Shown here: in pieces, positions 23,009 through 59,510 of the stretch
Position numbering within the stretch: the first letter of the stretch is position 1
Layout of the letters: each line of letters starts with the position of its first letter
DNA from: Stenomitos rutilans HA7619-LM2
Lineage (GTDB): Bacteria; Cyanobacteriota; Cyanobacteriia; Leptolyngbyales; Leptolyngbyaceae
Assembly (NCBI GenBank): GCA_019358945.1
Contig: JAHHIE010000008.1
Coordinates: 62,001-126,000 of the forward strand
Length of the DNA stretch: 64,000 nucleotides
Reading direction: 5' to 3'
Notes under the pieces: model-generated
What the model saw: the letters and a program-made list of their open reading frames with translations, nothing else
Databases searched by the model: none
Told to the model about the DNA's origin: nothing
Translations under genes and position numbers: made by a program

Positions 23009-23060
23009 TGCTTTGTAGGGCGTTGATCGTCCTACTCTCTGTGCTTCGGCGATTCACGTT

Positions 23061-23278
23061 ATACCAATTTGAATTGAAAATGCGACACATCCTTTAGGTG
23101 CAAGGCAATGCCTTGCACCTACCCACCGATTGATCTGTAGCCGTCATTCTTTTAGGACTTACGCAGTCGCCCCCTAAAGCCCCCAAATTTGGGGGACTTT
23201 GAGTGCTTGCTCCCCCAAATTTGGGGGCTGGGGGCTAGTTTTAGAGAACTTGCGTAAGTCCTCTCTTTAAATCGGTAT
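23061..23278 (+). repeat. 102-bp element family A, copy 1, split by an inserted element
   Basis: Begins ATACCAATTTGAATTG and ends ATCGGTAT, with the hairpin core GGTGCAAGGCAATGCCTTGC inside. The two halves are separated by the family B element at 23154-23262. Without the insert it would match the intact copies at 32270 and 33071. Confidence 0.8.
23154..23262. mobile_element. 109-bp MITE-like element family B, copy 1 (nested)
   Basis: Terminal inverted repeats AGGACTTACGCA and TGCGTAAGTCCT. The inside is built of inverted CCCCCAAATTTGGGGG blocks and has no coding capacity. TCTTT occurs on both sides, one base outside each end. The intact family A copies show only one TCTTT here, so it is a 5-bp target duplication. 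Confidence 0.85.
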
Positions 23279-23507
23279 TACAATATCTCAGGCGCTACAG
23301 CACGTTGAGCACTGAGTTTTAAGCGTTGCCTACTGTTTTAAACATTTGTGTCCTCATTGTTTGAGAAATGGCTAAGAAACCCTTGAACTGAAGAAGCAGT
23401 GATAGGATCTAGGTAATATTTACGTTATTCCGACCGATTTTTTGGGGATCGGGCCATTTCCCTGGTTGGATAATTTTGCTGTTGATTCTTTTCTTGCTAC
23501 CTTTCTG

Positions 23508-32269: not shown

Positions 32270-32371
32270 ATACCAATTTGAATTGAAAATACGACACATC
32301 CTGTAGGGGCAAGGCAATGCCTTGCCCCTACCCACCGATTGATCTGTAACCGTCATTCTTTAGATCGGTAT
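32270..32371 (+). repeat. 102-bp element family A, copy 2
   Basis: Begins ATACCAATTTGAATTG and ends ATCGGTAT, so the ends are short imperfect inverted repeats. The centre is the near-perfect hairpin GGGGCAAGGCAATGCCTTGC. It lies 20 bp upstream of the ATG of the minus-strand hypothetical gene. No clear target duplication is visible. Confidence 0.8.
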
Positions 32372-32564: not shown

Positions 32565-32806
32565 TATCGTGTTGTAGCACCCAAACATGATGTTCAGGTA
32601 CTCGAACATCATGTTGCAGTACATGGACATCACGTTTGGGTTCCTGGATCTCGTGTTCAAGTACATAAACATCGTATTCAAGTACCCAAACATCGTATTG
32701 AGGTTCTTGAATACGATGTTTGAGTTCCTAGATCTCGTGTTTAGGTTCCTAGATCTCGTGTTTAGGTTCCTAGATCTCGTGTTTGAGTTTTCAAACGTTG
32801 TCCTAA
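32565..32806. repeat. Degenerate 21-bp tandem repeat array
   Basis: About eleven units. The last three (from 32724, 32745 and 32766) are nearly identical, GTTCCTAGATCTCGTGTTTA plus one base; earlier units diverge (AAACATCGTATTCAAGTACC type). Because 21 is a multiple of three, both strands stay open, giving FLDLVFR on plus and NTRSRNL on minus as 7-residue repeats. Neither frame shows other protein features, so I treat it as non-coding until shown otherwise. Confidence 0.75.
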
Positions 32807-33070: not shown

Positions 33071-33172
33071 ATGCCGATTTAAAGAATGACGGTTATAGAT
33101 CAATCGGTGGGTAGGGGCAAGGCAATGCCTTGCCCCTACAGGATGTGTCGCATTTTCAATTCAAATTGGTAT
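33071..33172 (-). repeat. 102-bp element family A, copy 3 (inverted)
   Basis: Reverse-complement copy of the element at 32270, with the same hairpin core. It starts ATGCCGATTTAAAG and ends CAAATTGGTAT. TATGCC occurs at both edges and might be a remnant of a target duplication. With copy 2 it brackets the 21-bp repeat array in inverted orientation. Confidence 0.8.
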
Positions 33173-59409: not shown

Positions 59410-59510
59410 CAACTTAATTTATACCGAGTCTAAACAGCAATCGCTACAGATGAGCGTTGGGTTAGGGGCAGGGCATTGCCTTGCCTCTACTTACACCAAG
59501 CAATCGGTCT
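59410..59510. repeat. Diverged relative of the family A element
   Basis: The core TTAGGGGCAGGGCATTGCCT followed by TGCCTCTAC resembles the GGGGCAAGGCAATGCCTTGC core of family A, but the ends do not match. It may be an old copy or a separate hairpin repeat. Confidence 0.45.

Follow-up and report, generated by a model that had tools for sequence, protein, structure and literature searches.

The unit at 23062–23277 of the window, the stretch of 64,000 nucleotides analyzed here (G000:C117:62001-126000, from a genome, G000, of 7.28 Mb in 119 contigs), is very probably the product of two unrelated MITE families, with family A having inserted before family B at this site, with IS630-type and IS701-type transposases as their respective partners, and with the mutual nesting of the two families reflecting random insertion. 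A family A element (TACC...GGTA) is split here by a family B element with the ends TAGGACTTACGCA...TGCGTAAGTCCTC. A sequence-only reading of the window had described this arrangement, and most of its description stands: the family A copy is broken at CATTCTTT, the insert has perfect 12-bp inverted ends (AGGACTTACGCA/TGCGTAAGTCCT) with TCTTT at either side, and uninterrupted copies are present at 32270 and, on the minus strand, at 33071. The two elements that it had sized at 102 and 109 bp are real, and their lengths are corrected to 100 bp for A and 111 bp for B. The former value comprised the element plus one duplication base per side; B has 111 rather than 109 bp because one further base per side falls within the 5-bp repeat. 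Subtraction of the 111 bp of B and of one TCTTT from the window unit leaves exactly 100 bp, the usual family A length. The features are as follows:

23059–23061, no strand: left TTA (TNA) duplication of family A, from the sequence, the single TTA at the empty site of the relative G006 (locus L165) and the TNA flank census.
23062–23152, plus strand: left part of family A (positions 1–91), from the TACC end to the first TCTTT, from the sequence and a BLAST match to A positions 1–91.
23094–23122, no strand: 29-bp palindrome of family A, from the sequence and from the folding of the intact 32271–32370 copy into a hairpin (z −5.6).
23148–23152, no strand: left TCTTT duplication of family B, from the sequence.
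23153–23263, plus strand: family B element of subfamily B1, 111 bp, matching the B1 consensus at 95.5% and folding into a single long hairpin (z −11.1).
23264–23268, no strand: right TCTTT duplication of family B, from the sequence.
23269–23277, plus strand: right end of family A (AAATCGGTA), from the sequence.
23278–23280, no strand: right TTA duplication of family A, from the sequence and the G006 empty site.
32271–32370, plus strand: intact family A copy with a TGA duplication, from the sequence.
33072–33171, minus strand: intact family A copy (L088) with a TAA duplication in element orientation, from the sequence.

Two further stretches of the window were recorded: 59443–59490 partially matches the family A palindrome and its adjoining part (84% identity), and near-repeated units of ~20 bp (like ATCTCGTGTTTAGGTTCCTAG) occupy 32570–32790, between both intact A copies.

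Both families look like MITEs, since their members are short, non-coding, bounded by terminal inverted repeats, dispersed in many copies and flanked by target-site duplications, and these copy numbers and duplications are far beyond chance. Within G000, family A was found in 88 copies by its 5' end and in 91 by its 3' end (0 in the reversed-pattern control), and its length is exactly 100 bp in 85 of the 88. Three copies were found by the 3' end only: at C18:72939 the 5' end is interrupted by B, C116:111093 has a one-base gap, and C118:90584 has diverged. The left flank reads T-N-A in all 87 scored copies, with an identical right triplet in 82; the window copy, itself TTA/TTA, lies outside this count because its end is displaced. 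The triplets TCA (30 copies) and TGA (27) are commoner than TAA (18) and TTA (12), from which it follows that the family A duplication is TNA, not TA. Copies differ from the consensus by a mean of 1.24 changes per 99 sites, and 26 are identical outside the palindrome centre. Some A copies lie within DDE transposase genes that belong to other IS elements and are degraded or split (L131/L140, G000:C39:410643-411423; L145, G000:C18:8674-9042). The same genome holds other short TACC-ended elements of other subfamilies, about 100–295 bp long (L040, L254, L252, L253, L255, L256), and at one of these loci (L040, G000:C48:21028-21255) an A copy abuts another TACC-ended element.

Family B, about 111 bp long, is represented in G000 by 52 copies with exact ends (control 0). 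When one extra base per side is assigned to the element (in 39 of 54 copies a T on the left and an A on the right), an exact 5-bp duplication flanks 38 of 54 copies; in 2000 flank shuffles the average was 0.9 and the highest value 6. These duplications vary in sequence, being merely A/T-rich, and the mean identity to consensus is 0.91 for B1 and 0.93 for B2.

The window site has an empty counterpart in G006, a relative of the same genus in which the neighbouring gene is 87% identical. G006 reads GATTCACG TTA CAATA, with a single TTA, where the window reads GATTCACG TTA, 216 bp, and then TTA CAATA; both the A and the B insertions are therefore absent from G006, and the site, filled in G000, provides for family A the empty counterpart that the sequence-only reading had proposed to seek in sister strains. 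The gap was read by eye in G006 only. Among the 8 loci of relatives recovered by BLAST, none carries A without B at this site, and the sole A match in them (L168, at 2236–2337) lies away from the window-site gap; the intermediate with A alone is thus one that we infer. We propose that a 100-bp A element would first have entered an intergenic TTA, duplicating TTA, and that a 111-bp B element would later have entered A, 9 bp from its right end, duplicating TCTTT. The genome-wide census agrees with this proposal: the outcome named earlier as telling against it, the same insert in every A copy, is absent, and only 2 of 91 A copies, in the window and at C18:73021, carry B (counted by BLAST on fetched stretches, with L148 and L149 read directly). 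The nesting of B into A in the window is well supported by both duplications, by the empty site and by the 89 of 91 A copies free of B.

Beyond the window, nesting occurs in both directions. In the window a B1 element is flanked by a target-site duplication at A positions 87–91, and at C18:73021 a B2 element lies near the opposite A end, with the duplication TTCAA at A positions 8–12 and the TGA duplication of A intact; both insertions are at most 14 bp from an A end. The reverse arrangement is found at C83:139761-139998, which reads AAGTT, the larger part of B, TAA, a 100-bp A, TAA, the remaining B end and AAGTT, placing A within the terminal part of a B-like element; the TAA duplication of A and the AAGTT duplication of B are both intact. 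Another locus, L112 (G000:C39:303237), has B at the extreme end of another kind of TACC-type element, whose palindrome is GTAGGGACGTTACATGTAACGTCCCTAC; it looks like a third B insertion, its duplication (TCGGT/CCGGT) has one mismatch, and it was left out of the B-in-A count. Since A lies inside B at C83, A was active after B was already present, and since nesting runs both ways the window copy fixes the local order only. The earlier claim that the nested copy fixes the order of activity of the two families fails at this point. As read from the nested copies, each family was active after the other was present, and their activity overlapped in time.

Mutual nesting of this kind would be expected if two active families inserted at random into neutral DNA between genes, a process that orders single events and not families. 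By a hand estimate assuming 20% intergenic DNA, chance predicts ~0.35 B-in-A and ~0.4 A-in-B insertions; 2 and 1 are observed, so no special attraction is needed. A preference of B for the ends of TACC-type elements, which would make the nesting something other than chance, nevertheless has points in its favour, as both B-in-A events fall near an A end (14 bp away at most), L112 resembles a third case and an ISPlag1 copy in L292 adjoins an A-like end. We nonetheless consider it unlikely, given that the 5-bp duplications are so varied and that the 2 of 54 scored B copies lying in A are only a slight excess over the expected number, under the same intergenic assumption.

It is very improbable that family A as a whole stopped or acted before family B. 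The tally of two B-in-A events versus one A-in-B leans that way, but the copy at C83, with both duplications intact, rules out a fixed order, and the greater likeness among A copies points in the opposite direction; because B copies are the more diverse, A may, if anything, be the younger burst. Hardly credible at all is a fixed composite unit in which A and B spread together: the two can indeed be found joined, but a fixed composite is ruled out by the 89 A copies without B, and the two joined copies contain different B subfamilies at different positions within A, each with a duplication of its own. Whole-genome searches returned no further copies with an identical A–B junction. Random mutual nesting of two unrelated families remains the reading that we prefer. 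One genome then offers two clean, countable MITE families with partners that are likely, together with an empty site and nesting in both directions, and it cautions that one nested copy must not serve to rank families by age.

The partner of family B appears to belong to the IS701 family. IS701-family transposases are encoded by elements of relatives and of cyanobacterial plasmids whose ends, (C/T)AGGACTTACGCA, are the same terminal repeat as that of B; the transposase of L246 scores 348 bits against NF049921 (cut-off 250). L246 itself (G024:C8:25972-28496) is a 2.5-kb element with B-type ends that holds, besides the IS701 transposase, a divergent 334-aa reading frame with no Pfam or NCBIfam match. 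ISPlag1 and copies from Nostoc and Gloeocapsopsis have B-type ends and the 5-bp duplications TTCAA, ATAGT and GGATA. An exact duplication of this length, the length found for B, flanks 3 of 4 plasmid copies, and L293 has no equal 5-mer. ISPlag1, an IS701-like element of Planktothrix, has its 12-bp ends (AGGACTTACGCA) in common with B, as well as a duplication of 5 bp; it is a full IS with a transposase gene, whereas B, at about 111 bp, has no gene. On the Planktothrix plasmid p2 (L292), ISPlag1 lies beside an A-like end (TTCAAATCGGTATC); its duplication, TTCAA, is the one also seen where B is nested in A at C18. In G000, four contig ends carry the same IS end with four different flanks, and no complete IS701-type copy is assembled; the partner is visible only as broken ends because the contigs stop inside the element, which is broken at C19, C51, C62 and C115. 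About 20 bp (TAGGACTTACGCAAAAGCGAT) of the IS end at C8 recur at the right end of subfamily B2. Based on these ends, B was probably moved by IS701-type (ISPlag1-like) transposases. ISAba11 is also IS701-like. Its characteristic 5-bp direct repeat (PMC7885321) resembles that of B; the organism is different, and the likeness is one of description. Related Acinetobacter transposases match the query at 48% and may or may not be ISAba11.

For family A, the same terminal repeat is found around IS630-type transposases in relatives. The remains of an IS630-type transposase lie between TACC ends flanked by TGA/TGA in L382 (G003:C69, 1152 bp; same genus) and L200 (1404 bp), and L380, one of 3 complete copies of relatives, has TACC ends and the unequal flanks TAA/TTA. 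The L380 reading frame reaches 111.8 bits against NF033545, over the cut-off of 100, and that of L382 80 bits, under it; both exceed the cut-off for PF13358. An intact autonomous partner was not found in G000, and the copies in relatives are decayed. These ends suggest that A would have been moved by an IS630-type transposase that recognizes TACC ends and duplicates TNA. Published IS630 elements duplicate TA (PMC6267812), and 57 of 87 A copies have TCA/TGA flanks, which offer no TA. Because its duplication is TNA, we do not place family A among the canonical IS630 MITEs and class it as IS630-like with a deviating duplication.

TNA duplication is known from IS5 elements of the DUF4096 type, which were considered as partners of A and rejected for their different ends. 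None of the 29 PF13340 loci from relatives, and none of the 12 own transposase loci examined, has paired TACC ends, and GAG/GAA-type ends with TNA flanks are present at six loci of this comparison. L248 and L249 (G010, G021) were likewise rejected as full-length A partners, as their ends surround or fall within a reading frame that is conserved and otherwise ordinary.

The palindrome of family A has an unusual centre. In 85 ungapped copies the central base is T in 44, A in 38 and C in 3, and at every other site at most 7 copies depart from the commonest base; the two centre forms are thus the palindrome and its reverse complement (the centres in the window are positions 23108 and 32317). It is as if the hairpin tip flips, the centre being about half A and half T in copies otherwise ~99% alike. 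The centre state is not linked to the remaining sequence (permutation p 0.45), and the 26 otherwise identical copies divide into 15 T and 11 A. Other genomes show the same dimorphism (T 18, A 12, C 1), in a tally that excludes L154 and L159 of G000 (both T) as well as L153 and the second copy of L354 (both A, no full palindrome). Matched changes on both stem arms occur in 3 of 85 copies, at stem pairs 37/55 and 44/48; the window copy is among them, its palindrome reading GGTGC...GCACC and not GGGGC...GCCCC, a form also present in Leptolyngbya sp. ES-bin-22 (L353).

These features would fit an inversion at the hairpin tip, and counting against it is a one-arm stem change (site 38) that is common to four copies and has its mirror image in none. 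We suggest tentatively, and with somewhat less than even confidence, that tip inversion in vivo randomizes the centre and copies stem mutations across the arms, and that A belongs to an IS630-like, TNA-duplicating group. Two co-amplified master copies together with gene conversion may also explain the dimorphism, as may hairpin flipping during library preparation. If in vivo inversion is true, family A would naturally record the extrusion of hairpins in the chromosomes of cyanobacteria, and could make extrusion readable from genome sequence, provided that the dimorphism is no sequencing artefact.

Among known MITEs, Nezha, from Zhou and colleagues in 2008, is reportedly cyanobacterial. RUP of Streptococcus pneumoniae is about 107 bp long, has 108 copies, uses TA targets and is found inside other IS elements; an IS630-family transposase is believed to mobilize it in trans (PMC2229807). 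Family A resembles RUP in length (100 bp), in copy number (91) and in also interrupting transposase genes, and differs from it in its TNA target, 3-bp duplication and perfect 29-bp palindrome mid-element. MITEPlu5 of Photorhabdus, an IS630-related MITE of 123 bp with a TA duplication (PMC6267812), is like family A in its IS630 relationship, high copy number and strong secondary structure, and unlike it in length, duplication and ends. In a literature search on palindromes and MITEs the match listed concerns Drosophila; for the element end sequences, no cyanobacterial or transposon title stood among the matches listed, which look like chance hits.

The 218-bp A+B unit has no DNA match in the plasmid collection. 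In a scan of genome contigs a 27-base A end gave no match, and a 20-base A end matched 38 stretches, mostly from Leptolyngbya sp. ES-bin-22, with others from Stenomitos frigidus ULC18 and 4 from other phyla; given the two named genomes, G000 most likely belongs to a filamentous cyanobacterium related to them. A 32-base A end, with up to 3 mismatches, was found in 5 of 97 genomes searched and 2 of 58 genera. Of 41 genomes, 24 contain B-type ends that fall outside the known MITE subfamilies.
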